A stretch of DNA of 64,000 bases from Trichodelitschia bisporula (lineage: Eukaryota; Ascomycota; Dothideomycetes; Phaeotrichales; Phaeotrichaceae): positions 1,210,217 through 1,274,216 of the forward strand of contig ML996690.1 in assembly GCA_010356995.1 (NCBI GenBank), in the 5' to 3' direction. This document shows positions 34,492 to 60,665 of this stretch, piece after piece. The position numbers and the translations under genes were made by a program. Positions within the stretch are counted from its first letter, which is position 1, and each line of letters opens with the position of its first letter. Under the pieces are notes generated by a model. That model saw nothing but the letters and a program-made list of their open reading frames with translations. It made no database searches and had not been told where the DNA came from.

Positions 34492-34992
34492 GCGGCTGGT
34501 GGAGTGGATTCGGAGTAGGCTGGAAGGGGAGACGGCTCGAGGGCGAGGTATCGAGCTTTCGTTGGGGCATCACGACTTCAGTTCAATGGCCAATGGGGGC
34601 ATCGCTTCCAACCGAGTTCTCAATCGAGGGAGTCCCTTCCCCTCCAGTACCGAATTGGGACGGCATTTGCACGGCAACACTCACCTAGGCCGGCGTCCTT
34701 CCCCTTTCATGGACGGCAATCGTGCCCGCGCGGTAGTGATGGCTTAGAAGGGAGGTCGCTATGCAGCTCATTGTTGACAGTCCATAGAGAACATATAACA
34801 CCGCCTTCTTCCTCTCTCTTCACTTCTGCAAAAACCGATCCCCGTTCACTCGTAACAGATTTCTCTCTCGCCAACCAACATCCATTTGAGACTATCTCAC
34901 CACCATTGTTACGATCACTTTTTTACCGATTATTTACAATTCTTTCTTACTTTTACACACGCTTCACCACCACCACCGACCACCAGACAACG
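34492..34992. promoter_or_regulatory. Promoter and leader of the giant gene
   Basis: About 500 bases between the bL19m stop and the first in-frame ATG of the giant gene. The part from 34790 on is pyrimidine rich and AT richer than its surroundings, fitting a transcribed leader. The reading frame is already open from 34771, but with no earlier ATG. Confidence 0.45.
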
Positions 34993-37900
34993 ATGCAGCA
35001 TCCACCCGCCGTCTCCACCGTAACAACGGTCGACATCGCGCAAAACTACACATTCATTTCCCGCCCCCCACCCGCTCGCCCCGGCCAGGCCATACCCCCC
35101 CCCACGCCCCCGCCCACGCGCACGCCCGTCCCATATCCAGCTAACCCCTTGGGCTGCAACCGACCGCCGCCATACCTGGTCGTGAAACACACCCCGCTCC
35201 CGCCGGATTGGGACAACAAACCACTGTTCGCCGATCCGCTGTACGCTGGGCCGCTTTTTGCCGATGCCGACGGGCGCCTCGGCCCGCCCCCCGCCCCGCA
35301 ATGTGAGCCCAGCACCCGCACCGCCCCGCTCGCCTTGCTCTTCCAAGTGGGCATCATGCTCTTGGCGGGCATTTGGTATTTGAGTCAGGGGCCCGGCCGG
35401 CGCTGGCAGCGACGGTTTGGGTACTTGGATGGGAGGATGAGGGGAGAGTGGGGTGTGGAATGGAGGGGTGTAGGCAAGGGGTGGAGACCGAGATTGGAGA
35501 CGATTGTGGAGAAGGGGGTGGGGGAGCAGGTGTACCCCACGCTCGACGAGGAGGAACGCGCTGCGCTCGCCTACACGGAGCTCGACCGGTCCACGCGCTC
35601 ACCCGCGCCTGAGCCGGAGACGGCCCCGCCTATGCCTGAGCTTGAGGTACGGAAGGTGAAGATGGACAGGATGAGCAAGTTGGAGGCGCGCAGGGGCAAG
35701 CGCGGTGCCCGCAAGTACAGCAATCCTCACGGGGGCCAGTACGGCCGCCTGGCCCGCGTTGCCGCGGGGAAGAAGAAGGGGGAAAAGACCGGACCTGCAC
35801 CTGGGATTGAGAGTGATGGGGAGCCATACCCGATGCCCCTGCCTACACCTGAGCCCCAGCCAGAGCTGCCTGCACCGAAGCCGGAGAAGAAAGGGCGGGG
35901 CAGGCGGGAGCGCCGTCGGTGGCGCGCGTTGGCGGCGGAGGATGTGGCGTTGCTTGCGACTGAGCATGGCGGGGTTTGGAATGAGCGGGAGAGGGATAGG
36001 CGGAGGGCGGTGGCGGCGGCGAAGAGGCGTGGCGATGTGGACGGAGGTGCGGGTGCGAGTACGCCTCTGCTTCAACCCGGCAATCGGCGTGAGGGTCTTA
36101 CCGAATCAGCACCGCAATATGTCTCTGGGACGGTGCCGGAGGGGTCGGCGTCCGGTTGGACAACTGTACCCCCGTCGCGCATCCTTCTAGTTTCTTTGCT
36201 AGCGCTCGCGCTCGCGCTCCCCGGCACTGGCGCTACGGTAATCTGTCCTGAACGTTACGTTTCGTCTTACTACCTGAGCACGTGTGCACCGTTCCCGTTT
36301 CCTGCCGGACCGTGCGCTATCCCGCCGACTCCACCACCATCACCCGCTACATGCTTCGTTCCTTACTCCCCGCCAGTTGCCGAACTATGCACCCGGACCC
36401 GCACGCCATGGACTGTCCCCGCGGAATGGCGCCCGAGACCAACATTCGAAACCCCCACGCCCCTCGCCCGCCGCGTGCTCGCTTCGCTAAGCCCGTACTT
36501 ACACATCACCGTGCGCGACTGCATCTGGCTCGCCTCCGCCATCTTCTTCCTGCTCTCCTGGGCCTGGCTTTGGAAATGGGGCACCGTGGCCCCGCCGCGC
36601 GGCCCGGTTACCTACGAGGAATGGCTAAGGGGTGAGGGGGAGCCGCGCCTGCGGCGGGTGGCTAACTACAAGGTTGTCGATGGGTTCCTGTGCGACGTCG
36701 CTGATTCCGAGGCCAACGAAGTTTCGACCCCAGACACCGCAGATGAACGCGAGGTTATGGGCGCTTTTTATCTCCCCCCCGATCACGACAGCTGGCCGGA
36801 TAGGAAACGCAGGCGGCGCCGGAGTGGCAAGCGGCGCCGGAGTAGCAGGACTGGACACTTCAAGATAAGTAGGGAGGAGAGGGAGGTGCGGGCTGGGGCG
36901 GAGAGGGACGAGGGGGGGGATGAGGTGGATGAAGAGGACTGTGATGTTCCCGTTGCCTCGGTTGAGGCCGAGGAGTTTGAACTCACGGAAGAGATTAAGC
37001 GGAAGTGGGATCGCTGGATGCGGAGCAGGCGAGGGGAGCGAGGGGTTATGGGTCAGGAGGGCCAAGCCGCTGTGGAACGAGAGGGGCAAGTCGCGGCGTT
37101 TCAAGTGGTACACGGCGAAGAGGTCCGAGTGGAAGAAACCGAAGCGCTCCGACTGGAAGAAGCCGAAGAAGTGTTCCGAGTGGAAGAAGCCGAAGCGTTC
37201 CGAGTGGAAGAAGCCGAAGAAGCGTTCCTAGTGGAAGAAGCCGAAGCCTTCCGAGTGGAAGAAGCCGAAGAAGCGGTCCGAGTGGAAGAAGCCNNNNNNN
37301 NNNNNNNNNNNNNNNNNNNNNNNNNNNNNNNNNNNNNNNNNNNNNNNNNNNNNNNNNNNNNNNNNNNNNNNNNNNNNNNNNNNNNNNNNNNNNNNNNNNN
37401 NNNAGTGGAAGAAGCCGAAGAAGCGTTCCTAGTGGAAGAAGCCGAAGCCTTCCGACTGGAAGAAGCCGAAGCGTTCCAAGTGCAAGAAGCCGAAGCCTTC
37501 CGAGTGGAACACGCGGAAGCGATCCAAGTGGTAACAGCCGAAGCGTTCCGAATGGTACAAGCCGAAGCGAATCGAATGGAGCAAGCTGAAGCGGACCGAG
37601 TGGAACAAGTCGAAGCGAATCGAGTGGAACAACTCGAAACGGCCGGTGTGGAAAAATCCGAAGCGGACCGAGAGGCCGCGGACCCCGTAAATTCTACCCA
37701 CGAGCTCACAGTGGGGGGCCTCGTTGGTGATAATCCTATTGAGTGGCAAAACTCCGCCATCACGCGTGACCAAGTGCGAGAATGGCATCTCGAAGGCGAT
37801 GCGGACGATTTTTGGCCCCCCTCACAGAGAAGGTGTTGGTGCAGCTATCAAGATGAGGCGCACGACGAGGTAGTCTGCGAGCAATATAAGACGATGCTTC

Positions 37901-40900
37901 GGCGCCGGCGCCGGTATTTGGCTAAGGCAGACCGCGAGGAGCGACGCAAGGGCCGTCGGCGAGCTGAGAGGCAAGCCGCGTCGAAGCGGTGGGCGAAAAA
38001 GATCAAGCGCCGGCGGGATGCCTGGGAGCTCAAAAAGTGGGAGCGTGGGCTGGGCTCTACGGAGCACTCCGGTGACTCGCGCGAGGAGCGACGCAGCTCT
38101 GACGTACACTATGCGTTCTTACTCAAGTACAGTGTCGCTACCGAGTTACGGTGTCGTCTCCAGGGACCGACGTCCAGTTACTCCCGCCTTTTTCTGTTTG
38201 GGTATCTGTATTGGGAGATGATGAACAAGGAAGACTTGGCGGGGTGGGTGGCAAGGGAGAGGGCGCAGGGCGAGAGTGGGGGCGCGAACGATTGGGTGGA
38301 ACCGCCGGAGGAGGTTCTTGGGTTGGAGGAAGGGGGCTTTGAGCGGATGAAAGAGATGGAGGGGAAGTTTAGGGACCTCAGGGAGTGGCGGAGGGAGTAT
38401 GCTGTGGAGGAAGAGAAGCTGCGCGGACCGTGGGAGATGGGCTATATGGCAGAGAGGTTCTGGCAAGAGGAGTGGGAGCAAGCTGAGATGGACCGGGCAT
38501 GGAATGATCTGAACAACCCTTTCGCGGTTCTTGCCGAGCTGTCCGGCACACCCACTAGCGACGACTCAAACACTACGGACCACGCCACCAGTCGACCGTA
38601 CGGCGCCTACTCCGCTCCGGCCTCCCTCGGCAAGCCTAACTTCGTCCCCCCACCCTGCCTCGCCTCCTCCCGGCCCGAGCCCCTTGCTAACTCCGTCGAC
38701 CTTCGCCCCCTCCCCCCGGTACCACCTTTCGTCAATACCCTCCTAGCCGAAGGGGAAATCACACCCTTCCTGCCCGTCGACCCCTGCCCAGCAGGCCCAC
38801 CTATCGACCCGGAACCCCGGCCGGGCGACACGATCTTCACCGTTAACGAGGAGTGCTACTCGCAGCCCCTCGAGCCCATAACAGACACCACGCCAGCCAC
38901 CGGCACGATCATGCCGCCGTTCCGCAAGATCGCGGACGTGGTCATCGCACTGCTCCGCACGATCCGTAATAGGGCCCACGGCCTCGTGAGCGTCGAGGTT
39001 AGGCCGGCGGATGAAACCGCCCCGTGGACGCCAGGCCCGCCCACGCCGCCGGAGCCATGGACGCCTCCGGAACGGCGCTCGGCGGCGGAGGCGCTGCGCC
39101 ATGCGGCGCGCAAGCCTGATGGGCCGGGAGAGGGGTCGTGTGTATGCTGTGTGCCGTGGAGATTGGGCCGGTGGAGGAGCGCGCGGAGGTCCACTGTGCC
39201 CGACGGGGGCGAGCGGGCCATGGAGATGACGACGTTTGCTGAGACGGTGCGGCAAGTGGATGGTGGCGGCGCCGCAGGTGGACAGCCGGATCCCATTGCC
39301 GAGGGTGAACAACCGAGCACCCATCCTGATCCGGACAACGAGACACATGCCAATTCGGAAAGCGATTCAGATCGGGGTTCGGACGACATCCCGTGGCTCC
39401 AGCATCCGACCCTACCGGCAATCGGAGAGGGGAGCGAGAACTCTGCGCCTGACGACGCCCCGGTACCGCGAGCCGCAGATCCCCCGCCGGCATCCACGCC
39501 GTTCTCGAACCTGGATATCGTCGAAGAAGCGAGTGAGCACTCCGAGCCTAGGGGCGGCGCTGCAGCGAAAGGTGCATACTCCCCACCAGCGTCCGCGTCA
39601 CGCTTCGTCTCGCTCCATGGATTCGTCCAGAGTGAGGACGGTACCTCCCTTTCACTCCACGGGACCGGAACTGGGGACCTGCCGCCGATAGAGGGCATCG
39701 AGGGCGCGCGGCCCAGTTCCGATGATATCCCGCCTCCGGGGCGCGGTCGCGGCAGTGGTCGGGCCGGCGAACCAGCTGCGCCGCCGGCTGGTACCGCGTC
39801 CGGTGGAGGACACCTGTTGATGGGCCCAGGGCCGGGGTACCGTGGCCGATACCGTGGTCGCAGCCGATACCGTGGTCGCGGCGGTAACCTTGGTCGAGGT
39901 GGAAACGCTCCTCCCGCTGGAAACGCTCCTCCCGCCGGACAAGAGCCTTCCCAAGCCGACCCGCCCTTTGAAGCCAACTCCGATGAAACCGCAGAGGAGG
40001 AGTTTGTGTCGACTGCTGATCCCTCGACTGCGGATCCTTCGCGGGCACAGGCTCCTCCGAGCCTCATTTTTCCGGAAATTCCGGCTCGGGGTCCTCCTGT
40101 GTGGGACTTTGTGGAGCCTTACATACCGTCCGCTGCGGATCCTCCAAGGGCATCAGCTGACGAGGCTGCGTCGGGAATGACTGATCCTTCGGGGGTGCCG
40201 GCTCCAAAGCTTTGGGAACCCCCAGCTGGAAAGACTTGGGGTGCGGTTGTTGTGGAGCATTTGGAAACGATAGCTGAATGTTCCTCGCCACCACCAGCAG
40301 CTCCACCTCCAGCTGCAGCTCCACCACCAGCTGCAGTCCCATCAACAGCTACAGTTCCAGCACCAGCTACAGTTCCAGCACCAGCTACAGTTCTAGTACC
40401 AGCTACAGTTTCAGCACCAGCTACACTCTTGCCACCAGATGTATTCCCACCACTAGAACTAGCTACAGTCTCACCACCAGCTGTTGCCCCAGCACCAGCT
40501 ACAGTCCCGGCACCAGCCGCGGTCCCAGCATCAGCTACAGTTCCAGCATCAGCTACAGTCCCATCACCAGCTGTCGTCCCATCACCAGCTACCGTCCTCC
40601 CACCAGCTGCAGTCCTCCCATCAGCTGCAGTCCCCCCACCAGCGGCAGTCCCCCCACCAGCTGAAGTCCCAGCACCGGCTGCAGTCCCAGAACTAGCTGC
40701 AGTCCCAGCACTAGCTGTAGCCTCAACACCAACTGCAGTCCCGGTACCAGCTACAGTCCCGGCACCAGCTGCAGCACCAGCCGCAGTCCCAGCACTGGCT
40801 GCAGTCCCACCACCGGCTACAATCAAGCGCAAGACGTATAGCGGGAGGAAAAAGCGGAAACTGAAGGCGGAGCTGTCAGAAGATGAAAAAAATGCATGGG

Positions 40901-43900
40901 AAACGATGGTTAGCGACGCACGCCTGGAGAACCGCTTCTTGAAAGAGAAGGTACAGGAATACCCCGACCGTCACTTTAGGGAGGCGATTGACCAGGCGTT
41001 GGATCGTCCTCCAAAAGAGACGATGTCAGGCACAACCGACCGATCAACCTGGGTGAAAATCCCGTACAACCCGGAGGCCGCAGGGCGTCAGACACGGCGA
41101 TCACATATACCACTGCAAATGCCAAAGTTACCAACTGGCCCCGAACTGGCAGAATTTATTCTTGAGCGTGTCAAAAAGTCCAATCCCTCTTATTTCTTCA
41201 AACTGCGGATGAAGGGTTCCTCTGAGGACACCGAAGACTGGCTTTCCTTCGATAGCGAAATTCTCACTGTGGCGCGCATCACATTCTGCCGTTCACTTGT
41301 GTGGACTGTCGGTACCCGAGATGCAACGCAGCCCAGGGACGGCGATGCAGGGGACGAGCAGCAAGCAGCAACGCAGCAACAAGGAAAATCGATCGAGCCG
41401 CCAGACATGTGGAGTCTAAGGCAAAACTTTGCGGCGGAGAGCCAAAGTGATGTACCGCTACAGCTGGTGAACTTGCTGATTATCACGTTCCGTCACCCGC
41501 CAAAGCCCGTTTTGCTCACGAACGAGGGGCAACTGTCAATCACTCTGGCGCTTCCTCGTCAGACACATTCCGTAACCAGTCTTCCAACCCCAGGCCCTCG
41601 AATGCCACAAACCGACGAAGAGAGGGCGACGGGAATTCTTCACGCGTTGGATTGGGATGTCTATGAGCCCCCAATATTTTCAACAATCGTCACCAACGGC
41701 GCTCATCCCAAAGCATTCTGTATTACTTACAAAGGTGATGGGCATCTCAAGCTTGAGACTACGCTTCATCCTATGCAAGCACTCAAAAAAGGAGACGAGG
41801 AAGGCAAAGCTGACCACAAAGCCTTGTCTGGGGCGCCTAGAGTCATGAAATTAGTATGCGCAGCATTCCGAAGCAAAACTGCGCCCATCATTGAAAACCC
41901 GAACGGTTCCTTCAGCGTCGCGCTCCCGATTCCCGGCAAAGATTTCGACGACGAGAAGATCAAGGCAATGCGTCGTTCCTTGAAAGCAGCGGGGGGTATT
42001 GACCAGCCAGGCGCGCCTCAGCCCAGCGACGACTACATTGCGGAAATGTTGTTACGGCAACTGGGGTTGCAGGGTGAGAAGCGGGAGCGATTTCTCAAGC
42101 GACTCCGGTATCAATGGCCGGACGGCAAGTTTCAAGCAGTAACGGTGCTCTCTTTGCCGAAGGACAAGATGACCATTGAATACCGTTATATATCCGCAGA
42201 CGGCACTGAGCAGTCGAGCTCCGATGAGGCCTCAGAGTCTTCAGAGGAATCAAGCGAATCGCGTTCCGAGGAGCCTCCTCGGCCCGCCGTCCTCCCCGCC
42301 TCCAAGCCGAAAACCAAACGTGCACCCAAGCCGGCCCGGAGTAGCACGGTGGAAGAGTCGGCCCGCAGTTCAGGATCGCCAGTCCCCGAGGCGCCCGCGC
42401 CTCCATTCTCTCAGCTGCCGCCCTCAGCTGCTCCCGTGCCGGTACCCGTCCCAGAGGGCTCATCTTCCCCGCCATTGTGGTTCGACCCAACTCGCAAGCT
42501 GCCCGGCCAGTCTCGAAAGCTGCCCGACCAGTCTAGCAAGCTGCCCAGCCAGTCTCGCAAGCTGCCCGGCAAGTCCAGCAAAAAATCGTGGCCCCCCAAA
42601 GCTCCCAAGCCATCACAGCCCGCCCAATCTCCGACCCCTCACCCAGCTCCAGCGGCGCCCACGCCTGCGTTTGCCCCGGTTCCCGTACTTGTCCCGATGG
42701 GCCCCCCTCCCACACCGGCGCGGCCCGCCCGACCTCCGACTCCACCACGACCTCCCCGGTATCCGGCCCCGCAGCCAGAGCCAGGGGTGCCTACGCCCTC
42801 AGACGCACCCGCGCCTGCATCTGTCATATTTGCCTCTACTTGGTGTCTGGGATTGCTTGCGGCAGTGCAGTCGGACGACGGTTCAGAACCGCAAGACTCT
42901 GTGGCATCTGTGCCCCAGGTCTCTCAGCCGCAACCCTCGGTCGCCCCCGTACCCGCACCCGTCCCGCAGCCAGCGCCAGCGGTGCTCGTGCCTGCACCTG
43001 ACGTGTCTGGGTCTCCTCAGCCTCCGGAAAGGCTTTCGGCGCAGGTGGAAACGACTGACGCGGAGACGTCCCAGGCTCTCGCAGGGGACTTGAACCAGTA
43101 TGTCTTCGTGACGGCGGCAGTTTACAGAGCAATTCAGGCCCGGATCGACGTCAACCATACTGTAGCCGGTACTAAGGAGCGCCGCGTGGCCATGAATAAC
43201 CTGACGCACGAACTCGCCGAATGCAAGAGATACCTGGACGAGCTGACAGGGGAAGATGAGGCGTGGCTCAAAAATTTCAGGACAATACTGGCAACTGATT
43301 TTCAGCAAGCCTTGCCGGCTAGCCCCGGCGAGGGTCATACGCGGGTGGGCACGGCTCACGGAGAGTCTTCCGCATCCTCGGTCCGCCAAGCAGCGGTTAA
43401 CGCGTTTTCACAAGCAATCGAAGCGCTTCTCAAAGTCAAGAGTGCTGGGGCCGATCCTGAGACGCTCCTTAGGAAGGGGCCCGCACTGGTGGCACATCGC
43501 CCGTGGTTAAGTGAGGAAGAGGCAACGGGTTTCGAAAGGTTGTTGGTGAACATGGAAACGAAAATATGGCTGGCCTCGTACAGTGGTGCTCAAGCAGACA
43601 CAGCTGATGTGGCATCACTCTCAGCACTGGATCGTGCAGGGCGACAGGCGCTTGCGGCAATAGACTACGTGTCCTTCCATTTTGACATTGCTAGTCATGC
43701 CTATTTCGAAACGAAGTGGAACGCCCTGGCGAGCAAAGAACTCGTGCTAAAGACGCGGAATGAGAGGTTGGGAGCGAAATGGGCAGCGTTAGCCGAAGAA
43801 GAAAATGAGGCTTTGGAAACGGGGGATGATTTGGTGATCCCCTTGAAAAATCGCGAGCTGAAGCAAGCAAGGGACGCGCTACGGGCGGAGTTCGTATCAC

Positions 43901-46900
43901 TGGACGGGCAGCTCGCGAAAGTGGAAACGGAAATAGAAGCGTTGGCCGAAAAAGTCCAGACGATGGAAGACAAATTGCTACCGGCTGCGCAAACCGCTTC
44001 CGGCGAGAGTGATGCGCGAGTGGACACGGCTAACACGGGGCCGTCCGAAAGCTCGGTTACAGCCGCGCCTGTCGGAGCGGGATCGCCTGCAAGCTCGGTT
44101 CAAGGCGCGCTGAAGGTTGGTGGAAAAGCCGAGCCTGCCGCTCTCATTCCGGCCTCGTCGCCGGCTCTCTCAGCGCGAGTGGTGCTTTTCGAAGCAATCA
44201 AGGCCCGTCTCGAACTGGAGCGTACTGCGCTCGATTCCGAGAAGCTCCACGTGACCAAGGCCAAGCTGAAGGCCGAAGTCGCTGCGGCACAGGCGTACCG
44301 CCCGGCGTTAACTGTGCAAGAACAGAGGGTGTTTGACGAATTCAAAGGGGCCCTGGGAACGAGATCAAGGCTAGCCTTGCCAGCTAGGCCCGACGATAGG
44401 GATATGACTAAAGCGGAGCTTTCTGCGCACCTGGCTCATCACATAGCGCAAATGGCGCTTTGGGAGGCATTCGTGGCGATTGTCCAAGTCGAGCGTGCTG
44501 CGGCCGACCCTGCGGCGCTCGAATCGAAAATTTCCGCGCTGCGACCCATAGCAGCCACGCTAAAGGAACACTTCCCGGTACTGACTGAGGCAGAGAAAAC
44601 GTGGTACCTCGAAGCTGAGGGGGACGTGAGAAAGATAAGGTGGCTGGCGGCCCCGATACCCGACGATGGTGATACACGGATTGACACGGCCAACACGACG
44701 TCTTCCGCACCCTTGGCTCGTGCAGCAGCGAAAAGGGCCCTTTCCGAAGTATTTGAGGCGGCTCTCGAATTGAAGAGTACCCCGGCCGATGATCAGACGC
44801 TCCAGGTGAAGAATGCCGTGTTGTCTCTCAAATTTACTGCACTCCTGGCACACAAAGCGTCGCTGAGTCAGGCAGAACTGGAGCCACTCTTCAAACTCTT
44901 GACGGAATTGGATAAGAGCATAATGATGGGCCCGCACACTGTGCCTGACCGGGGTGATACACAGGTGGGTACGGCCAACGCCGGGCCGTCCGCAAGCTCG
45001 GCTACAGCCGTGGCGGAGGTAGGTGGCGGAGCTGAGCCCACCACTCTAGTTCCGGCCTCGTCGTCTGGGCCCGCCCAGGTCTCAGTGCCTACGGAGCCCT
45101 CCTCTACCGTCGCCCCGGCGCAAGAGGGAGTACAGGCCATGCTGGAAGAGGGCGCGCGGTCGGCCACGGCTGATGCGCGGCTATTGTCAGAACATGTTCG
45201 TGTGGAACGAGAGGGGCTTGACGCAGTGAAAGAGGCGCATCGTGAATTGGACCTTGTTGATGCTACCGATTATGTGATGCGCGGCGAGAAGCGGCACCCG
45301 TGGGATCTCGCACTGAGGCGCCAAAAGTCCACGCTAGAAGCTCACTCTGCGACGCTGAACGCGAAATTAGCGGCGTTGGTCGACGAAGAAAAGAGCCTTA
45401 CGACTGTGGATAATCTTACCGTGCGCCGTGCGATGGAGGGCATGCTGAAGCTCAAAAAGACTGTCGCAGAGGCGGAGCACGCGTCACTGAACGCGAAGTT
45501 CTCGCAGCTGGATGTGGAATTATCGTCGTACCAAAAAGAAGTACAGACGTCAATGAAAATGATAGAGACGTCAATGGGAAAGATAGAGACGTCAATGGAA
45601 AAGATAGCGGCTCAGCTCATCACTAACCAAGAGGGTGATATGCGGGTCGAAAAGGCCAAGGGAGGACGGTCCGCCGGCCCGGTTCACGCAGCACCGGAAA
45701 CACCCGACGAAGCCGAGCCTGCTGCAGTGGCACGGCCCGACACGGGACTCTCAACCGGCGCGGCTCACGCAGCACCGAAGATGCACGGTGGGAAGAAGCG
45801 CAGCCACTACGACAGACTCCTCACGAAGCGCGCGAGGGTGAAGGAGGAAGTCGCGGTGCTCTTCAAAGAACTCTGGATGGTCGCGGACCGGGAACAACTG
45901 CAGGAGGCACTCCGTGAGCTGCTCGATGCACTCTGGGCAGACAGGGCGAAAAGAATTTCGCCGGCCATACAGATAAAGTGCAACAAGGGTGACACGCGGG
46001 CGCCTACGGCTGACACAAGGGTTTGGCGTGACCTCAATCGCAAAGTGCTGAAGTTATTTTCTAGCAAAATGGTCAAGTTGTTTTCTAGCAAAGTGGCCAA
46101 GTCAGGTCGCATCGCCGAGATTACTATATTGAAACCAGCCGCGCACGCCGCAGTAGACGACGGCGATACCCGAGCCGAAACAACGGATGCGGGATCGTGT
46201 GTAGATCCGGTTCACGTAACACTAAAACTGCGGAGCGAAGCCGAGTCCACTGCATCGGCACCAGAATCGGTTAATGTGGAATCGCCCGCAAACCCCTTAC
46301 AAGCACTGCCGACGACGCGTGACGATGCCGAGCATACTGCTTCGGCGGGTGTTGAAACACACCCCGTGACGAAGCGCGATCTGGCTCGCCAAGTCAAATG
46401 GCTCGTGGCGAGGCACAAGGACTTCAAGGCGAAACTTGCGGAGATTCGAGGCGATGTTGTGCTATACGAGAACGATGACCCGGACGAAACGATCGGCGCG
46501 GGGCTTATTACGAAAATGGTTCACGGGGGCCTCACCATGAACCAGATTCACGCATCACTGGATGAAGCCGAGTCTGCTGCTGCGGCGCCGGTCTCGCAGC
46601 CCACGCCACATGTGCGCGACACCCGGACCGAAACGCCCGACACGGGGCCTATTGTGGACCTGATTGATAGACTTCTGGAGTTACTCAACGACGTCGAGAC
46701 TACTGCAGTCGGACCGACTGCGCAGGCCGCACAAGACGAGAGTGATGCGCAGGCCGCACAAGCCGAGGGTGATACGCCGGCTAAGACGACTGACGCAGAA
46801 CCATCCGCAGTCCCCGTTCACGCAGCGTCGGAGCCCCGTGGCGACGCCAAGCCTACTTCAGTGGGACAGTCCGCAAGCCCGATCCACGCAGCGCTGCAGA

Positions 46901-49317
46901 GGCGTGGCTGCGCTGAGCCAGCTACTGCGGCATCAACCGGTGTAGGACCGTCCACAGAACCATTTCAAAGAACGCCGGAGGAGGTGCATGTCGCAACCTT
47001 GCTTAGGCTAGCGGCACTGGATCTCGCTGGATGGCCCAAACCCCCGGTTTACGCCGCACCGGAGACACATGGTGAAGTCGAGCCTGCTGCTGCGGCACCG
47101 GAAACGGCCGACACGGGAATGTCCGCAGCGCCGGTTGCCCCAGTTCCCGAGAAGTCTGTCGAAGCCGAGCCTACTGCCGCCCCGCGCTCGCAATCCACGT
47201 CAGACGAAACCGAGCCTGCTGTTGCGGCCCCGGAAACGGCCGACTCGGGACCGTCCACAGAACCGGTTCAAAAAACGCCGGAGGAGGTGCGTGTTGCAGC
47301 CCAGTTTACTCTAGAGGCACTGGAATTCGCTGGATGGTTTGATGTCCCGATTCACGCAGCACCGGAGACACGTGGTCAAGCCGAGCCAACTGCTACGGCC
47401 CCGGAAACGGCCGACTCGGGACCGTCCGCAGCCCCGGTCCAAGCCGCGCCGGAGACACGCAGTGAAGCCGAGCCTGCTGCCGCGGCACCAAAAACAGCGG
47501 ACGCGGGATTGGCCGCAGGCCCGGCGCACTTCACGTCAGGGCCGCGTGACGCAATCGAGCTTCCTGCAGCGGCACCGACCGACGCTGAACCGGCGTCAAA
47601 TCCAGGGGGTGCGGCTCTCCTACAATCGATCCTCAATAGCGCTGCCCGCAACATTCCGCACAGCTTCTTGGCGGCTTTGCGACCAGCCGCCGCTGAGCCT
47701 ACAACCGCACCACAGATCTCGCGGTTCTCGGCTATACGGCCCGCGCCTCCGATAGACGCACCTCATGTTCCCTCACCCTCGCGCCACGGTGTCTTGAGCC
47801 CCGCAGTGCAGTCCCTTGTCGCCTCTATAAGCCAACCCGGATCGCAGGCTACGCGAGGGAAGACAATGCAGCGAGCGGACGCAGCTACTGCGGTGCCATT
47901 CGGAGGCCCAGTTCAAGCAGTCCCGGAGACGCGTGACGAAGTCGTGTTGGAGAAGCATGGTGAAACCGTGCCGGAGACGCCGGGCGAAGTCGTGCCTGAG
48001 ACCCAGGGCGAAGTCGTGCCGGAGACGTATGGCGAGGTCGTGCCCGAGACTCGTAGCGAAGCCGTTCCGGAGACCCGTGGGGAACCCGTGCCGGAGACCC
48101 GTAGCGAAGCAGTCCCGGAGACGCGTGGTGAGACCGTGCCTGAGACACGCGGCGAAACCCTGCCGGAGACGCGTGGCGAAGTCGTGCCGGAGACGCGTGG
48201 GGAAGCCGTCCCGGTGACGCGTGCCGAAGCAGTGCCGGAGACGCGTGGAGAAGCCGTCCCGGAGACGCGTGCCGAAGCCGTGCCGGAGACCCGTAGCGAA
48301 GTTGTGCCGGACACCCTTGGCGAAACTGTACCGGAGACCCGAGGCGAAACTATGCCGGAGACCCGAGGCCAACCCGTGCCGAAAATATATGGCGAACCCG
48401 TGCCGGAGACACTTGGCGAAGCCGAGCCTGCGACTGCGACACCAGAAACAGCGGACACTGGACCTTCCGCCGCCCCGATGTCCTCAGCGCCAATGCCGCG
48501 TGACGAAATCGAGCTTCCCGCAGCAGCACCGACCGACGCCGGACCGGAGGTAATCTCCTGGGATGATCCCTTCTGGGATACTTTGGAACCAGCTGCCGAG
48601 GAGCCTGCACCCGCGTCCCGGCCCCCGCCGCCGCCCCCGCCGTCTCCCCCGCTCCCCGAGCGGCTCACGTCCCCGCGGCAAGCGTCTCCGATATCCACAC
48701 CTCGTGTCCCTTCAAAACTGCGTCACGTGGCCTTCAGCCCTGAAGCGCAGGCACATGCCGCCGTTACAGACCAAATCCCAGCGCAGGCTGCGCTGATTCG
48801 GGGCAAGAGAAAGCAGCGAGCAGACACAGCTGCCGAGGTGCCGGCTGCAGAAACACCAAACTCACAGGCGGCGCCAACCGAAGTCGAGTCTGCTGGGCCG
48901 GGCCCGGAAGCGGCCACCGCGTGGCAGTTTACAGACCCAGCTCAAGCGCCAGAGCCGAATGGCGGAGTCAAGTTACCTGTAGAGGCGCCAGCCTCGCAGG
49001 CTATGCCAACCGACGTCGAGCGTCTTGCATCGGTCTCCACGCGACCCCCGGGTATGCGGTCAGCGCCCCCGCCAGCCCCACCGAAGTCGGCATATCACCG
49101 ATCGCTTGTCCCGCCAAAGCCGAAACACCTCGTTACCCCTGGGCCCCCTCCACCCCCGCCGAAGTCGGCACAACTCCGCCCGGTCGTACCACCGAAGCCG
49201 AAAGAGCTTCGCCCTCTCACCCCCCCGCGAGACCCACTGAAGCCGAAAGGGCCTCACCCTCCCTCTTCCCCACGAAACCCACCCAAGCCGGCAAGGTTCA
49301 GGCCCCCGAGCTCGTAG
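34993..49317 (+). CDS. Giant repeat-rich membrane-anchored protein, ~4,774 aa, unknown
   Basis: One uninterrupted frame of 14.3 kb, crossing a 110-base run of N. I recognise no family. Three hydrophobic helices lie near residues 111-131 (LALLFQVGIMLLAGIWYL), 394-414 (LLVSLLALALALPG) and 510-530 (WLASAIFFLLSWAWLW); the loop between the last two has five cysteines in a Pro-rich segment. Then: a Val-Glu-Glu-Ala-Glu array (37.1-37.65 kb), a basic coiled stretch, an acidic/Pro stretch, an RGG-like patch (39.84-39.93 kb), a PAPATV array (40.3-40.8 kb), a non-repetitive ~440-residue region (40.84-42.2 kb), Pro-rich linkers, a set of degenerate helical modules with GDTRVDTAN linkers (43.1-45.0 kb), Ala/Glu/Thr-rich repeats, a 21-unit octapeptide array (47.9-48.4 kb) and a Pro/Lys tail. 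A further membrane helix sits just downstream in another frame (to 49445), so the true 3' end may differ. The start is the first in-frame ATG. Confidence 0.7.
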   Translation: MQHPPAVSTVTTVDIAQNYTFISRPPPARPGQAIPPPTPPPTRTPVPYPANPLGCNRPPPYLVVKHTPLPPDWDNKPLFADPLYAGPLFADADGRLGPPPAPQCEPSTRTAPLALLFQVGIMLLAGIWYLSQGPGRRWQRRFGYLDGRMRGEWGVEWRGVGKGWRPRLETIVEKGVGEQVYPTLDEEERAALAYTELDRSTRSPAPEPETAPPMPELEVRKVKMDRMSKLEARRGKRGARKYSNPHGGQYGRLARVAAGKKKGEKTGPAPGIESDGEPYPMPLPTPEPQPELPAPKPEKKGRGRRERRRWRALAAEDVALLATEHGGVWNERERDRRRAVAAAKRRGDVDGGAGASTPLLQPGNRREGLTESAPQYVSGTVPEGSASGWTTVPPSRILLVSLLALALALPGTGATVICPERYVSSYYLSTCAPFPFPAGPCAIPPTPPPSPATCFVPYSPPVAELCTRTRTPWTVPAEWRPRPTFETPTPLARRVLASLSPYLHITVRDCIWLASAIFFLLSWAWLWKWGTVAPPRGPVTYEEWLRGEGEPRLRRVANYKVVDGFLCDVADSEANEVSTPDTADEREVMGAFYLPPDHDSWPDRKRRRRRSGKRRRSSRTGHFKISREEREVRAGAERDEGGDEVDEEDCDVPVASVEAEEFELTEEIKRKWDRWMRSRRGERGVMGQEGQAAVEREGQVAAFQVVHGEEVRVEETEALRLEEAEEVFRVEEAEAFRVEEAEEAFLVEEAEAFRVEEAEEAVRVEEAXXXXXXXXXXXXXXXXXXXXXXXXXXXXXXXXXXXXXVEEAEEAFLVEEAEAFRLEEAEAFQVQEAEAFRVEHAEAIQVVTAEAFRMVQAEANRMEQAEADRVEQVEANRVEQLETAGVEKSEADREAADPVNSTHELTVGGLVGDNPIEWQNSAITRDQVREWHLEGDADDFWPPSQRRCWCSYQDEAHDEVVCEQYKTMLRRRRRYLAKADREERRKGRRRAERQAASKRWAKKIKRRRDAWELKKWERGLGSTEHSGDSREERRSSDVHYAFLLKYSVATELRCRLQGPTSSYSRLFLFGYLYWEMMNKEDLAGWVARERAQGESGGANDWVEPPEEVLGLEEGGFERMKEMEGKFRDLREWRREYAVEEEKLRGPWEMGYMAERFWQEEWEQAEMDRAWNDLNNPFAVLAELSGTPTSDDSNTTDHATSRPYGAYSAPASLGKPNFVPPPCLASSRPEPLANSVDLRPLPPVPPFVNTLLAEGEITPFLPVDPCPAGPPIDPEPRPGDTIFTVNEECYSQPLEPITDTTPATGTIMPPFRKIADVVIALLRTIRNRAHGLVSVEVRPADETAPWTPGPPTPPEPWTPPERRSAAEALRHAARKPDGPGEGSCVCCVPWRLGRWRSARRSTVPDGGERAMEMTTFAETVRQVDGGGAAGGQPDPIAEGEQPSTHPDPDNETHANSESDSDRGSDDIPWLQHPTLPAIGEGSENSAPDDAPVPRAADPPPASTPFSNLDIVEEASEHSEPRGGAAAKGAYSPPASASRFVSLHGFVQSEDGTSLSLHGTGTGDLPPIEGIEGARPSSDDIPPPGRGRGSGRAGEPAAPPAGTASGGGHLLMGPGPGYRGRYRGRSRYRGRGGNLGRGGNAPPAGNAPPAGQEPSQADPPFEANSDETAEEEFVSTADPSTADPSRAQAPPSLIFPEIPARGPPVWDFVEPYIPSAADPPRASADEAASGMTDPSGVPAPKLWEPPAGKTWGAVVVEHLETIAECSSPPPAAPPPAAAPPPAAVPSTATVPAPATVPAPATVLVPATVSAPATLLPPDVFPPLELATVSPPAVAPAPATVPAPAAVPASATVPASATVPSPAVVPSPATVLPPAAVLPSAAVPPPAAVPPPAEVPAPAAVPELAAVPALAVASTPTAVPVPATVPAPAAAPAAVPALAAVPPPATIKRKTYSGRKKRKLKAELSEDEKNAWETMVSDARLENRFLKEKVQEYPDRHFREAIDQALDRPPKETMSGTTDRSTWVKIPYNPEAAGRQTRRSHIPLQMPKLPTGPELAEFILERVKKSNPSYFFKLRMKGSSEDTEDWLSFDSEILTVARITFCRSLVWTVGTRDATQPRDGDAGDEQQAATQQQGKSIEPPDMWSLRQNFAAESQSDVPLQLVNLLIITFRHPPKPVLLTNEGQLSITLALPRQTHSVTSLPTPGPRMPQTDEERATGILHALDWDVYEPPIFSTIVTNGAHPKAFCITYKGDGHLKLETTLHPMQALKKGDEEGKADHKALSGAPRVMKLVCAAFRSKTAPIIENPNGSFSVALPIPGKDFDDEKIKAMRRSLKAAGGIDQPGAPQPSDDYIAEMLLRQLGLQGEKRERFLKRLRYQWPDGKFQAVTVLSLPKDKMTIEYRYISADGTEQSSSDEASESSEESSESRSEEPPRPAVLPASKPKTKRAPKPARSSTVEESARSSGSPVPEAPAPPFSQLPPSAAPVPVPVPEGSSSPPLWFDPTRKLPGQSRKLPDQSSKLPSQSRKLPGKSSKKSWPPKAPKPSQPAQSPTPHPAPAAPTPAFAPVPVLVPMGPPPTPARPARPPTPPRPPRYPAPQPEPGVPTPSDAPAPASVIFASTWCLGLLAAVQSDDGSEPQDSVASVPQVSQPQPSVAPVPAPVPQPAPAVLVPAPDVSGSPQPPERLSAQVETTDAETSQALAGDLNQYVFVTAAVYRAIQARIDVNHTVAGTKERRVAMNNLTHELAECKRYLDELTGEDEAWLKNFRTILATDFQQALPASPGEGHTRVGTAHGESSASSVRQAAVNAFSQAIEALLKVKSAGADPETLLRKGPALVAHRPWLSEEEATGFERLLVNMETKIWLASYSGAQADTADVASLSALDRAGRQALAAIDYVSFHFDIASHAYFETKWNALASKELVLKTRNERLGAKWAALAEEENEALETGDDLVIPLKNRELKQARDALRAEFVSLDGQLAKVETEIEALAEKVQTMEDKLLPAAQTASGESDARVDTANTGPSESSVTAAPVGAGSPASSVQGALKVGGKAEPAALIPASSPALSARVVLFEAIKARLELERTALDSEKLHVTKAKLKAEVAAAQAYRPALTVQEQRVFDEFKGALGTRSRLALPARPDDRDMTKAELSAHLAHHIAQMALWEAFVAIVQVERAAADPAALESKISALRPIAATLKEHFPVLTEAEKTWYLEAEGDVRKIRWLAAPIPDDGDTRIDTANTTSSAPLARAAAKRALSEVFEAALELKSTPADDQTLQVKNAVLSLKFTALLAHKASLSQAELEPLFKLLTELDKSIMMGPHTVPDRGDTQVGTANAGPSASSATAVAEVGGGAEPTTLVPASSSGPAQVSVPTEPSSTVAPAQEGVQAMLEEGARSATADARLLSEHVRVEREGLDAVKEAHRELDLVDATDYVMRGEKRHPWDLALRRQKSTLEAHSATLNAKLAALVDEEKSLTTVDNLTVRRAMEGMLKLKKTVAEAEHASLNAKFSQLDVELSSYQKEVQTSMKMIETSMGKIETSMEKIAAQLITNQEGDMRVEKAKGGRSAGPVHAAPETPDEAEPAAVARPDTGLSTGAAHAAPKMHGGKKRSHYDRLLTKRARVKEEVAVLFKELWMVADREQLQEALRELLDALWADRAKRISPAIQIKCNKGDTRAPTADTRVWRDLNRKVLKLFSSKMVKLFSSKVAKSGRIAEITILKPAAHAAVDDGDTRAETTDAGSCVDPVHVTLKLRSEAESTASAPESVNVESPANPLQALPTTRDDAEHTASAGVETHPVTKRDLARQVKWLVARHKDFKAKLAEIRGDVVLYENDDPDETIGAGLITKMVHGGLTMNQIHASLDEAESAAAAPVSQPTPHVRDTRTETPDTGPIVDLIDRLLELLNDVETTAVGPTAQAAQDESDAQAAQAEGDTPAKTTDAEPSAVPVHAASEPRGDAKPTSVGQSASPIHAALQRRGCAEPATAASTGVGPSTEPFQRTPEEVHVATLLRLAALDLAGWPKPPVYAAPETHGEVEPAAAAPETADTGMSAAPVAPVPEKSVEAEPTAAPRSQSTSDETEPAVAAPETADSGPSTEPVQKTPEEVRVAAQFTLEALEFAGWFDVPIHAAPETRGQAEPTATAPETADSGPSAAPVQAAPETRSEAEPAAAAPKTADAGLAAGPAHFTSGPRDAIELPAAAPTDAEPASNPGGAALLQSILNSAARNIPHSFLAALRPAAAEPTTAPQISRFSAIRPAPPIDAPHVPSPSRHGVLSPAVQSLVASISQPGSQATRGKTMQRADAATAVPFGGPVQAVPETRDEVVLEKHGETVPETPGEVVPETQGEVVPETYGEVVPETRSEAVPETRGEPVPETRSEAVPETRGETVPETRGETLPETRGEVVPETRGEAVPVTRAEAVPETRGEAVPETRAEAVPETRSEVVPDTLGETVPETRGETMPETRGQPVPKIYGEPVPETLGEAEPATATPETADTGPSAAPMSSAPMPRDEIELPAAAPTDAGPEVISWDDPFWDTLEPAAEEPAPASRPPPPPPPSPPLPERLTSPRQASPISTPRVPSKLRHVAFSPEAQAHAAVTDQIPAQAALIRGKRKQRADTAAEVPAAETPNSQAAPTEVESAGPGPEAATAWQFTDPAQAPEPNGGVKLPVEAPASQAMPTDVERLASVSTRPPGMRSAPPPAPPKSAYHRSLVPPKPKHLVTPGPPPPPPKSAQLRPVVPPKPKELRPLTPPRDPLKPKGPHPPSSPRNPPKPARFRPPSS
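37117..37650 (+). repeat. VEEAEAFR tandem array in the giant gene
   Basis: Alternating 24- and 27-bp units such as GAAGCCGAAGCGTTCCGAGT + GGAA encode VEEAEAFR and VEEAEEAFR. The array is nearly perfect next to the gap and decays toward the right end (AEANRMEQ, AEADRVEQ). Two other frames, one per strand, are also open across it as a by-product of the periodicity. Confidence 0.9.
37294..37403. other. Assembly gap (110 N)
   Basis: An undetermined run inside the tandem array. Both edges are the same repeat in the same frame, so the gap most likely marks an unresolved number of repeat units; its true length is unknown. Confidence 0.98.
40294..40824 (+). repeat. PAPATV-type 18-bp tandem array in the giant gene
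   Basis: Units like CCAGCACCAGCTACAGTC encoding Pro-Ala-Pro-Ala-Thr-Val, with many variants (PSPAVV, PPPAAV, PELAAV). About 28-30 units. The flanks are ordinary sequence on the right and acidic/Pro linker on the left. Confidence 0.88.
47917..48420 (+). repeat. 24-bp x 21 tandem array (VPETRGEA) in the giant gene
   Basis: Twenty-one in-frame octapeptide units of consensus [AVTP]-V-P-E-T-R-[GS]-E, exactly 504 bases, without frame slips. Variation is mostly at the first residue and at the Arg and Gly positions; the edge units are the most divergent. Confidence 0.93.
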
Positions 49318-49445
49318 TTCATGTGCCGGACTGGCTTCCGCTTTCGCTGGCGGCCTTGTTTTTGGCGCCGCTTCTGATCCTGGATTTGGCTTTGTACTTG
49401 CTGGAGTTCGTGCGGGCGATTTTGTCGGATGGGATGTCTGAGTGA

Positions 49446-50229: not shown

Positions 50230-52022
50230 ATGTCAGACACGCAGCAGCGCGCAGTTGAGAACCCACAGCAGCCCACAGTCGCGAATACGCAGGAAGATGT
50301 ACCTTTCGTGCCCTTCACGGCGCTGGAGCCTCACCTGCAACGCTTGCACGATGTTAGCATCGAGGTGCGCCCCCATTCCCACATCCAGTCTCAACCCACT
50401 AACGCACGCAGTACATCCTCAGCATCTATCCCAAAATCTCCACCCGGCAAGCCTCAAACAAAACCTGGGGCGACGAGCTAGAATCCCAAATCGTAACCTT
50501 CAACCCCACCACCAAAACCGCCCTCCCCACCCCCATCCAAACCCACCTCCTCCAAACCCTCCCCTCCTCCTCCGCCGACCCCTCCGTCGCCGAACCAGTC
50601 TACCACCCCGAATTCGCAAAATACATGATCGAATCCACGCCCCCAACACCCTACACCATACTCCCCGCCTCCCTCCTCTCGGTAGAGGAATGCCTGCACT
50701 CCCGCCGCGCCACAATCCAATACAAGCTCCAAACGAACGAACAAGTGCTTAACCTCTCCCTCCACCCGCGCATCGGCGCCGACCTGCTAGCCGCACAACT
50801 CTCCCCCCCGGGCTCCCCCGCCTCTTCTTCCTCCACCTCAACTAGCCAGGCCCAATCCGCCCTCGACACGCTCATATCACCCGCGCCTTACACCGTCGCC
50901 CACGCCAGCATAACCGCGCGCCACCACCACACCCCCTCCATCAGCATCACCCCCTTCACAGATACCCACACGTCCCTTCCCCCCACCCTCACCCTACCAC
51001 ATATCCTCCCCGGACCCGGCGCGTGCGGCCTCCAAGCGACGTTTCAATGCGCCTCGCTCGGCCAGGCTAGGGCGCTGCACGATAGCCTCACGATCGTAGC
51101 CCCCGTGCTGCTGGCGCTCAGCGCGGCGACGCCCATCTACGCGGGCGTGCTCGTGGATACGGATGCGCGCTTCGCAAGGACGGGCATGGCGGTGGATGAT
51201 CGTGCGCCTGGCGAAGGAGTCGCAGCGCGGTGGGGCGTGCCGGGGATGTATCTCGCTGACGCGCCCATGGAAGATGAGACGCGGTACTTAGACCCCGGGC
51301 ACAGGCTTGGGGAGACGTATGTCGGGCGGCTTGAGGAGGCGGGGATGGACGGCGTGATGGCGCGGTATTTCGCTGCGATGCATGGGCGGGATCCGTTGTA
51401 TGTGCGCGGGGAGGAAGCAGAGGGACTGAGCGGCGAGGCGGTGTTCCGGAGTTTGTGCGGGAGTGATTGGTCCGCCGTGAGGATGAAGATACCTGAGCCA
51501 CAGGGGGCGGGGGGATGGAGGGTTGAGGTGAGGGTCATGGAGGTGCAGATGCGGGATTGGGAGAATGCGGGGCTGTTGGTGTTCGTCGCATTGTTGACGC
51601 GGGTTTTGATGAAGCAGGGGCTGGATTTGGCGATCCCGCTGCCGCAGGTGAGGGAGAATATGCGCCGGGCGCAGCGCCGGGATGCAGTACGCAGTGAGCG
51701 GTTTTGGTGGAGTGGTGGGAGGGACGGGGTTAGGGAATTGGGCATAAGGGAGATTGTGCTTGGAGGAGAGGGGTGGGTGGGTTTACTCCCGCTTGTGCGT
51801 GGGTATTTGGATGAGGAGCGGGTGGAGGGTGAGGAGCGTGCGCACTTGGAGCGTTATTTGGATTTTATTGGGCGGAGGGCGAGTGGGGACGAGAAGACTG
51901 CGGCGCGGTGGATCCGCAACTTTGTACAGGCGCATCCCGGGTACAAGGGGGATTCGCTTGTGAGCGATGAGGTGTGCTTTGATCTGCTGAGGGCGATGGC
52001 GGAGGCGGAAAAGGCCGGGTAA
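50230..52022 (+). CDS. Glutamate-cysteine ligase, catalytic (GSH1/GCLC-like)
   Basis: Two exons: 50230-50364 and 50412-52022, giving 581 residues. It joins glutamate and cysteine, the rate-limiting step of glutathione synthesis. Family blocks: TWGDELESQIV (the WGDE substrate-binding motif), VYHPEFAKYMIESTPPTPY, LLSVEECLHSRRATIQ, then GPGACGLQATFQCASLGQAR, IVAPVLLALSAATPIYAG, MAVDDR, RDPLYV, GSDWSAVRMKIPEPQ, WRVEVRVMEVQMRDWENA and VALLTRVLMKQGLDLAIPL with ENMRRAQRRDAV. It is somewhat shorter than the ~640-700 residues usual for eukaryotic members, and the block equivalent to FGMGCCCLQ reads GPGACGLQ, so it may be a divergent or second copy. No organelle signal. Its last codons are included in a 70-bp tandem duplication running past the stop. 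Confidence 0.88.
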
Positions 52023-52150
52023 TTGCACTCTTAGTGCCGGGTAGATCAGGCTGTCCGCTGCTTGGAGCTTGAATTGGATGAAGGCCGGGTAATAGCAGTC
52101 AGTGCCGGGTAGATTAGGCTATCAGCTGCCTGGAGTATGAATGATAGACG
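52011..52150. repeat. 70-bp tandem duplication across the GCL stop codon
   Basis: AAGGCCGGGTAAT at 52011 recurs at 52081, with GTGCCGGGTAGAT(C/T)AGGCT and CTGC(T/C)TGGAG following in both. The first copy carries the real stop, so the duplication copied the end of the gene into its 3' flank. Confidence 0.85.
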
Positions 52151-58173: not shown

Positions 58174-59880
58174 GGCCGGAAGTATTTTTAACCGCGGAGC
58201 TTAGTCCGACATTGCCAAGAGGGGGGTGCGCAAGCGCAGGCACTGCAGACGCAAGCGCTTTCAATTGCGAACGACGGGGTCTGGGCAGGGCAGTGGTGCC
58301 TGGCGGACCTGTAACTAGTATTCAATGACAGGAGATGTTAATGCGTTGAGATATTTTGCCGTCCGACCGTTGCCACCATGTCCAGAATCTTAACCCGTAA
58401 GCTTTTTTCCGTGTTGCTGACTCCGCCTGCAGCTCGGTTGTGGCCCGGCGTGCGGAGGCGCGGCAGTGTGGGGAAGCCTGGCGGGTGCCGGAAGCTTAAC
58501 GGCGATATGCCCGTCGATCACGGATACTGCGCCAAGTGCGGGGGAGACAGCAAAAATCAACCTCAGTCGTTGCGGCAGGAGCATAAACAGCGGAAAAACA
58601 AGCGCCGACGACGGAAAATGGATCACGACATATGACATTCTAGATGCCCCTGATCTGGCGCATCTGGCTAGAACAAACCGCGCACGCCCCGAACGCTTCG
58701 CTCCGATTTCTGGAATCCGGTATTCCGCTACCAAATAGCGCCATCTAGACGCTCGCTCTCGGGCGGCCAAAAATATCTACTGGTCCGAGTTTGGAGCAAC
58801 TTGCGCTCGCCCCGGTGTGAAGCTCGCAAAACCCTCAAAAGCCCTTTGACAAAGACGTGTTGCCGAACAGTGCCTTGGTGGGGCTGGTTTCGTGGACGTA
58901 ACAGAAACTTGTACGTGCGAATAGTTGCCCGAGCACGCACGGCGCGAGATGACTTCATATATGAAGGTAGATTGCGAGCTGACGAGGACAACCCCCCTGC
59001 CGTGATGCCACCGAGGCGTCCGTGTCTCAGATCCATTACCCGGGCCTGGGGGTCGAGCCCCTACCCTCCCCGCACGCCAATAAAAGCTTGGTGGTATGGT
59101 TATTTTGCGCTGATGAGCTTCTATGGGGTCTATGAGATTCTATTGAACACGATGGGTTCATTCTCCGCGATGCTGGACGTCGCGCAGGCATCAGAAGTCG
59201 CCAATCTGGCAAAACTAGATGAGCCGTCAGCACCGGAAAATACGCTCCTAACGCCATGTCGCTCTTCCGGTGAGGAGAGAAGGCGATGTTCGCCCTCCAA
59301 GATAACATACACAAGCACTCTAAGCTTTCGCCAAGTGCATCGAAACGAGCGCATCGCGACCTTTCATTCCCACCCCCGGCTTCTTCCCCCCCCCCCACGA
59401 CATACCACGAAGACCATCCGTCTGGCCCCGCGGCGTAATTTCGGTCCGTCTGTCACGTCGGCGAGCCCCTCCTATTGCCTGTCATGACGCCATGCAGCGC
59501 CTGTCCGTCGGCCCGCCAAGTACGGGCAATATGCGCAGACAACCGGAGCACGGGTTCGAGGTCGCAGGCTCTCTGGCCGCGGCGCGCCGCCGCGGCTGCG
59601 GAGGGCGTAGATTGCGCGCGGCCACGAGGTGCTATCTTCGTCCTTCGCGGAGAAACGCAATTTAGGCCTGGCAGAGGCCAAGATGCGTAGATGGCGATGG
59701 GCGTACCACGGTGTTGAGGTATGGGAGTTCGGGAAAAGCGAATTCCCCACCAACGAGGCGTCGCCTCCGCGAGGCTGGAAGTTGTATAAGAAGAGCAGCG
59801 GGATCGTCTGTTTCGAAATCCAGTTCTACAACCAGCATCCACTCATTCGATCAGCTGCACCAGCAACCCACACACTCACT
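58174..59880. other. Spacer, 1.7 kb
   Basis: No supportable gene. Short open frames exist on both strands without motifs. The last ~60 bases are the leader of the next gene, with a TATAAGAAG-like motif at about 59785. Confidence 0.55.
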
Positions 59881-60665
59881 ATGCATTTCACCAAGGCCAT
59901 CGCCCTGGCCATCCTGGGCTACAGGTTCGCACCCTCCCGCCCCCCCCACCTCTTCACCCAGCTAACCTCCCCCCCAGCGCCCTCGCCTTCGCCGCCCCCG
60001 TCGAAGCCACCACCGAGATCGCCCCGGCCGTAGCCGAAGTCGCCGCCCCGCAGGTCGTAGCGGTCCAAGCCGACGACCGCGACCGCTACGAGCGCGAGCG
60101 CCGCGAACGCGAGGAGCGCGAGAGGCGCGAGCGTGAGGAGCGTGAGCGCCGCGAGCACGGCCGCGGCGGCGACGACCGTGACCGTTATGAGCGCGAGCGC
60201 CGCGAGCGCGAGGAACGTGAACGCCGCGAGCGCGAGCGTGAGCGGGAGCGGGAGAGGGAGCGCGAGCGCGAGCGCCGTGAACGTGAGGAGCGTGAGCGTC
60301 GTGAGCGCGAGCATCGTGGTGGGCCGAGGGATCGGGATGGGCGGGACCGCGACCACCCCCGGGATCGGAATGGGTGGAAGCGCGATGTTGCCACTACTGA
60401 GGTTGCTGCGGATCGGCCTGGTGAGCACCGCGGGGATGATCGGCGCGAGAGGGAGGAGCGTGAGCGGCGCGAACGTGAGGAGCGTGAGCATCGCGAGCGG
60501 GAGCGCGAGCGGGAGCGGGAGAGGGAGCGCGAGCGTGAGCGCCGCGAGAGGGAGGAGCGTGAGCGCCGCGAGCGTGAGCATCGTGGCGATCGTGACCACC
60601 GTGGGGACCGTGATCACCGTGGGGACCGTGGCCGCGAGCACAACCGCGGGGGCAATGGCTGGTAA
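59881..60665 (+). CDS. Secreted Arg/Glu repeat protein
   Basis: Two exons: 59881-59924 and 59978-60665, giving 243 residues. The signal peptide MHFTKAIALAILGYSALAFA is completed by splicing and ends before APVEATTEIAP. From about residue 47 to the end the chain is almost wholly charged: RERREREERERRERE-type runs, broken by two more neutral patches (GPRDRDGRDRDHPRDRNG-like near 60.31-60.40 kb), then a GDRDHRGDRG-type end and NRGGNGW. Such a chain would form a long, single charged alpha-helix or be disordered. No catalytic domain. A secreted protein of this composition is unusual; the family is not recognised. Its donor site GTTCGC is weak, but the branch site (GCTAACC) and acceptor are good, and only this splice gives a signal peptide joined to the repeat frame. 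Confidence 0.72.
60046..60650 (+). repeat. GAGCGC-type hexamer and longer-period repeats
   Basis: Codons GAG/GAA and CGC/CGT alternate over most of this stretch, in larger blocks such as GAGCGTGAGCGCCGCGAGCG that recur many times. It is the coding repeat of the secreted protein. Confidence 0.85.

Follow-up and report, generated by a model that had tools for sequence, protein, structure and literature searches.

Organization of the analysed locus

The window analysed in this study is a 64,000-nt stretch of DNA (G000:C4:1210217-1274216) from a 30-contig, 25.65-Mb assembly. A glutamate-cysteine ligase frame within it (50403-52022) showed 100% identity, in a search of the protein database, to a protein of Trichodelitschia bisporula, a member of the Dothideomycetes (Phaeotrichales). 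A stop-free frame spans positions 34519-49317 and, read from its only in-frame ATG at or before 34993, i.e. the one at 34993 itself, gives 4774 residues (referred to below as the main frame). It is preceded by a frame carrying a ribosomal L19 domain and followed by the ligase gene. The latter, the sole neighbour checked for introns, contains one of about 45 nt; the contrast between a single uninterrupted frame and neighbours split by introns of about 50 nt, drawn in the preliminary description of the locus, thus stands as far as the ligase is concerned. The features of the locus are presented in Table 1.

Table 1. Features of the giant frame and its downstream neighbour (positions within the window).
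Feature	Position	Strand	Basis and remarks
Candidate giant gene	34993-49445	+	Starts at the first in-frame ATG; ends with the stop of the +2 frame, which takes over near 49.03 kb
Hydrophobic segment 1	35317-35385	+	Residues 109-131; Kyte-Doolittle maximum 1.95
Hydrophobic segment 2	36163-36249	+	Residues 391-419; Kyte-Doolittle maximum 2.02
Cys/Pro-rich loop, five Cys	36244-36390	+	Residues 418-466; Cys positions
Hydrophobic segment 3	36499-36555	+	Residues 503-521; Kyte-Doolittle maximum 1.63
Acidic VEEAEAFR-type tandem array	37117-37672	+	Repeats; Ns (110-N gap inside)
18-nt Pro/Ala/Val tandem array	40309-40818	+	Repeat table; negative codon score
Non-repetitive part, 470 residues	40819-42230	+	Relatives not found; fold not predictable
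Isolated TM-like stretch in Pro-rich surroundings	42811-42867	+	Residues 2607-2625; Kyte-Doolittle maximum 1.76
Helical modules M1, M2, M4, M5, M6 (one family), with M3 between	43090-45012	+	Pairwise z, alignment, model of M1
Helical module M7	45115-45657	+	Relative of M3 (43600-43977), z 10.9
24-nt array of VPETRGEA units	47915-48428	+	Repeats, substitution pattern
Transition of coding evidence, main to +2 frame	49014-49052	+	Change point 49028; range within 3 nats
Putative C-terminal tail, +2 frame	49053-49445	+	Hydrophobicity, codon scores, motif
Glutamate-cysteine ligase gene	50230-52019		581 aa; downstream of the giant frame

Coding potential of the giant frame

The 14.3-kb open frame of about 4,770 residues noted previously was confirmed. 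Over 34993-49052 the main frame contains no stops. Its own codon-position composition would predict approximately 104, and the remaining five frames have 119, 165, 75, 152 and 102. Dinucleotide shuffling of 34993-49317, repeated 100 times, gave longest frames of 287 aa on average and 419 aa at most, versus 4774 in the native sequence. When nine separate blocks, chosen to exclude 37294-37701, 47915-48428 and the tail, were each shuffled 200 times in the same way, six never remained open and the other three did so in 7, 2 and 1 of the 200 shuffles.

Codon scores for the three forward frames were obtained from a model trained on 14,917 codons of 32 frames free of Ns. The main frame was positive and the best of the three in 21 of the 23 600-nt blocks of 34993-48792. 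The exceptions are two blocks (39793-40992) in which the +1 frame scores better, yet has 3 and 8 stops. All 20 tandem-repeat rows inside the frame (some of which overlap) have periods divisible by 3, against 14 of the 19 rows found in the rest of the window, where 60.07-60.63 kb contributes 8 of the 14. A strict scan of the giant frame, a putative single exon, for intron motifs yielded five candidates at three places (0.35 per kb); such motifs are commoner on the + strand of the window overall (2.27 per kb). Taken together, the stops, the shuffles, the codon model and the in-frame repeat periods indicate that most of the giant frame is real coding sequence, and its length is far beyond chance.

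The frame is not uninterrupted in the strict sense. Besides the absence of stops, which holds, it crosses a run of 110 Ns (37294-37403) that the preliminary description had missed. The gap lies inside a tandem array and is flanked on both sides by the same repeat in the same reading frame. Since 4 of the 20 10-kb stretches sampled from the assembly contained Ns as well (75, 104, 120 and 4174 Ns), it looks like an ordinary scaffold gap within a tandem array.

N-terminal segments and putative topology

The three N-terminal membrane helices and the Cys/Pro loop described earlier were both recovered, the former as hydrophobic segments and the latter with its five cysteines (Table 1). Segment 1 is followed by basic residues, and NYT at residue 18 may be a glycosylation motif; this fits a three-pass anchor with the N-terminus outside and the rest of the protein in the cytosol; we infer this topology from sequence features. 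The TM-like stretch at residues 2607-2625, if real, would complicate it. Residues 15-82 and 423-488 resemble each other weakly (E 3e-4 without composition correction, z 4.0).

The hydrophobic helices had been taken as a sign of selection. The segments do exist; however, by the same test 34993-49052 contains 19 TM-like stretches in the remaining five frames, against four in the main frame, and for this reason hydrophobic segments alone constitute weak evidence.

Repeats and helical modules of the middle part

A Gly/Arg/Pro-rich part lies between the VEEAEAFR array and the 18-nt Pro/Ala/Val array. Further downstream, the set of helical modules proposed previously was borne out by pairwise comparison: among the 36 pairs formed by nine helical pieces, eight scored above z 4, seven of them at z 7.5-14.2. 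M3 and M7 make up a second module family, apart from that of M1, M2, M4, M5 and M6. M1, modelled with four relatives, was predicted to consist of three helices (pLDDT 75.5). The module duplicates were found by direct pairwise alignment and were missed in a BLASTP self-comparison, which we take as a limit of self-BLAST. In the 470-residue part no internal duplication was detected between units 1 and 2 (z 0.2) or 1 and 3 (z -0.7), and the score of units 2 and 3 (z 4.1) is suggestive at most.

Selection within repeats and duplicates

Selection had been argued for on the basis of the hydrophobic helices and the non-repetitive part. This argument held in so far as the frame admits no stops and has largely fitting codon usage, while purifying selection at the level of residues is clear only in the VPETRGEA array, in the main frame. 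In this array mismatches were found at the third codon position in 314/824 comparisons and at the other two positions in 144 and 144, with pS 0.43, pN 0.16 and pN/pS 0.38; the copies are related to each other, so these comparisons are not independent.

The remaining repeats gave a different picture. For the module duplicates pS equals pN (0.42; 542 aligned codons, seven pairs), and variation by codon position amounts to 0.48, 0.41 and 0.38, the third position being the least variable. The main-frame pN/pS is 0.93 in the 37420-37672 part and 1.09 in the array starting at 40309. In three arrays (starting at 37117, 40309 and 42491) the pN/pS of the +1 frame is below that of the main frame (0.34, 0.62 and 0.21 vs 2.06, 1.09 and 1.06, respectively); the +1 frame has stops in the first two and a worse codon score in the third. 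Stops are thus avoided throughout, but most repeats hold their exact residues weakly. A linker for which length and general character count would be expected to behave in this way, and so, just as much, would an orphan under loose constraint.

Probable frame switch near the C-terminus

The C-terminus had been placed at 49317. This assignment is probably wrong, as codon statistics and a repeated motif shift to the +2 frame near 49014-49052, and this frame ends at 49445; the probable switch puts a hydrophobic tail in the place of the Pro-rich end. Permitting a switch to +2 gains 12.4 nats over the same bases (up to 49317). In a rough control, for which the switch point was not optimised and the draws overlap, 1280 draws of 87 training codons gave a +2 advantage of at least 12.4 only twice (15.1 and 15.1), the next-highest value being 11.0 and the mean -41.7. 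An earlier codon training set placed the change point within a nearly identical range (49014-49058). A P-T-E/D motif is read in the main frame upstream of the switch (48874 and 49006) and in the +2 frame downstream of it (49077 and 49233). Synonymous and nonsynonymous counts in the tail repeats (6/14 in the main frame and 7/16 in +2) do not separate the two frames.

The +2 tail carries the most hydrophobic segment found, a stretch of 35 residues (49323-49427) ending within 6 residues of the stop. Its Kyte-Doolittle maximum (2.43) exceeds those of the TM-like stretches in the other five frames (2.10) and in the main frame (2.02). The last approximately 90 residues of the main frame are probably misframed and, whatever the cause of the switch, main-frame residues beyond about 49030 should not be trusted.

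An intron was considered as this cause. Four loose candidates all end upstream of the switch interval; the lone donor-like GTATG lies at 49052. Under strict criteria 48800-49420 contains a single branch-like site, at 49374. With no canonical intron detected, the switch may stem from an indel in the assembly, from an intron of unusual type or from a real frameshift.

Searches for relatives

The preliminary description recognised no family, and the searches agree with it for the parts covered. Neither Pfam (searched with the whole main-frame protein and with six pieces) nor NCBIfam (three pieces) gave a credible match. The top NCBIfam row, IcmG/DotF (E 0.00042), was rejected, since its 20.1 bits lay far below the cut-off (200) and it fell on a coiled-coil stretch. 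For the 470-residue part no PDB sequence was found at E ≤ 5. The sole PDB match, ribosomal eL29 (E 0.00085, 19 bits), covers residues 4355-4449 of the VPETRGEA region and was attributed to composition.

Searches of the protein database, which depend on shared five-residue words, gave no match at E ≤ 1 either for residues 1944-2420 among proteins of 2625-8354 aa (3910 candidates) or for residues 1-700 in the 825-2625 aa range (the 7985 candidates with the most words in common). A third search, with the ligase, used as a control of coverage, revealed that besides the ligase of this species the database contains ligases from other fungi, several of which we take to be Dothideomycetes. The absence of homologues therefore carries some weight for the parts and lengths searched. 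Neither range returned the giant protein itself, which may thus lack a full-length annotation in the database. No paralogue of the parts searched was detected in the fungus's own genome, a weak match of contig C13 to the tail (E 0.007) being probably noise, judging from its reading frames. Literature searches on leashin, giant septal proteins, T. bisporula and Dothideomycete genomes turned up no paper on this gene.

Comparison with leashin, spectrin and titin

The closest known design is that of leashin (Lah), a giant fungal organelle tether which, according to the available parts of two reports, attaches to Woronin bodies by one end and, through a helix near the other, to the septal pore (PMC2690989, PMC5345055), with a poorly conserved, spring-like middle (PMC2690989). 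The similarity comprises giant size, a repeat-filled and poorly conserved middle, a membrane-linked end and restriction to fungi, as far as leashin is described in the same sources (PMC2690989, PMC5345055). In the accessible text of PMC10023807, several septal-pore genes are restricted to Pezizomycotina, and are leashin-like in this respect.

Several features differ. Three hydrophobic segments are N-terminal here, and such segments are not mentioned for leashin in the portions of PMC2690989 and PMC5345055 available to us. The predicted tail lies at the extreme C-terminus (in the last approximately 40 residues), with no domain after it, while the available text on Lah places the helix at residues 761-781 of the last 1000, followed by about 219 residues (PMC5345055). 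A helix and then a putative extracellular domain, within the last 288 residues, characterise the C-terminus of leashin. The net charge is -138 over the 4,774 main-frame residues, compared with -1088 given for Neurospora leashin in the part of PMC2690989 consulted. The length, about 4,775-4,820 residues plus the unsized gap, may or may not set the protein apart from the predicted leashins of Ng et al., listed there with 5,936-7,480 residues (PMC2690989). For the N-terminal 700 residues, proteins of 825-2625 aa yielded no relative; full-length leashins are longer than this. The protein resembles leashin in design, but with the C-terminal arrangement and the charge against it, membership in that family is not supported.

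The three helices modelled for M1 recall spectrin-like repeats; the best row for the spectrin Pfam profile, obtained with one of five modules, reached 12.4 bits against a cut-off of 27. The VPETRGEA array, rich in P, E, V and basic residues, is similar to the PEVK region of titin in composition only, and any elasticity would be putative; as stated in the excerpt of PMC2690989, Ng et al. made the same comparison for leashin.

Interpretation of the giant frame

Tentatively, and with confidence that stops slightly short of even, we interpret the locus as one giant gene encoding a single membrane tether or scaffold of roughly 4,800 residues. In this protein the N-terminus would be located outside the cytosol, with three helices serving as an anchor and the Cys/Pro loop also outside; the cytosolic portion would comprise about 4,150 residues, with small helical bundles and flexible repeats, and the final hydrophobic tail of the +2 frame may anchor or bury the other end. 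All of these assignments are predictions from the sequence. Such a molecule could act as a long flexible tether or scaffold joining a membrane to another membrane or complex, its length and springiness mattering more than its exact sequence. With one or both ends anchored in membranes, a long flexible middle, a Pro/Glu array and helical bundles, a protein of this design would function most like a tether. The giant multi-repeat protein of the preliminary description, membrane-anchored and restricted to this lineage, is still the best reading, even though that account missed the gap and the frame switch; whether it would serve as a cell-surface or an organelle-tethered scaffold is a matter of inference.

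Several observations speak against this reading: the poor codon fit of 39793-40992, the 110-N gap, the equality of pS and pN in the modules, the lower +1 pN/pS in three arrays, the TM-like stretches in other frames, the one at residues 2607-2625 and the synonymous counts of the tail repeats. Alternatively, the stop-free frame may be shared by more than one gene, or belong to a gene whose introns are in frame, the weak block at 39.8-41.0 kb being the border. We regard this as fairly unlikely: the better score of the +1 frame in the poorly fitting blocks, the intron-like motifs at three places and the gap at 37.3 kb would agree with it, but the main frame is open throughout (39793-40308 was open in none of 200 shuffles, with a mean of 4.1 stops), the +1 frame has stops in both weak blocks, and the density of intron motifs is below that of the window overall. 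Somewhat less probable still is a real but loosely constrained orphan gene, whose low-complexity product would be made, perhaps dispensable, and drifting, with no tethering role. The weakly held residues of the modules and of the arrays at 37.4 and 40.3 kb, as well as the lack of relatives in the searches made, are what such a gene would give; the exclusion of stops over 14 kb, the clear constraint on one array and the hydrophobic tail that appears under the switched frame are less easily reconciled with it.

That the protein is this fungus's own leashin, the Woronin-body tether, seems highly improbable. Its giant size, repeats, Pro/Glu array and C-terminal hydrophobic stretch would point that way, and the middles of leashins are poorly conserved as described in the accessible part of PMC2690989; against this stand the N-terminal segments, the position of the tail and the charge discussed above. 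The least credible explanation of all is that the frame arose by chance in GC-rich low-complexity DNA. It draws on the three blocks that occasionally remained open on shuffling, but the other six never did, the other frames are full of stops, and shuffles of the whole region fall far short of the observed length.

Returning to the single tether or scaffold, a more specific version of it, which we consider doubtful, is a membrane-to-membrane bridge born within this lineage and unrelated to leashin, anchored by three helices at one end and by the hydrophobic tail at the other, with a Pro/Glu spring and tandem three-helix bundles between them. Giant repeat-rich tethers position fungal organelles and evolve too fast for homology searches to catch reliably; if two-ended anchoring were true, the protein would represent an independent solution to long-distance tethering.

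Other features of the window

The glutamate-cysteine ligase at 50230-52019 is a second, divergent one, as its best database rows besides itself are only 35-44% identical. Contig C16 of the assembly matches the ligase family far better (558 vs 287 bits), so the gene adjacent to the giant frame looks like a diverged paralogue. A 68-nt tandem repeat (52011-52142) starts at the extreme end of the ligase frame and extends into the flanking DNA. Elsewhere in the window we identified an AA9 (GH61-type) frame on the + strand (10250-11329), a chitin-binding GH18 frame on the - strand (20105-21028) and, at 59790-60794, long open frames on both strands with Arg/Glu-rich tandem arrays (60069-60630).
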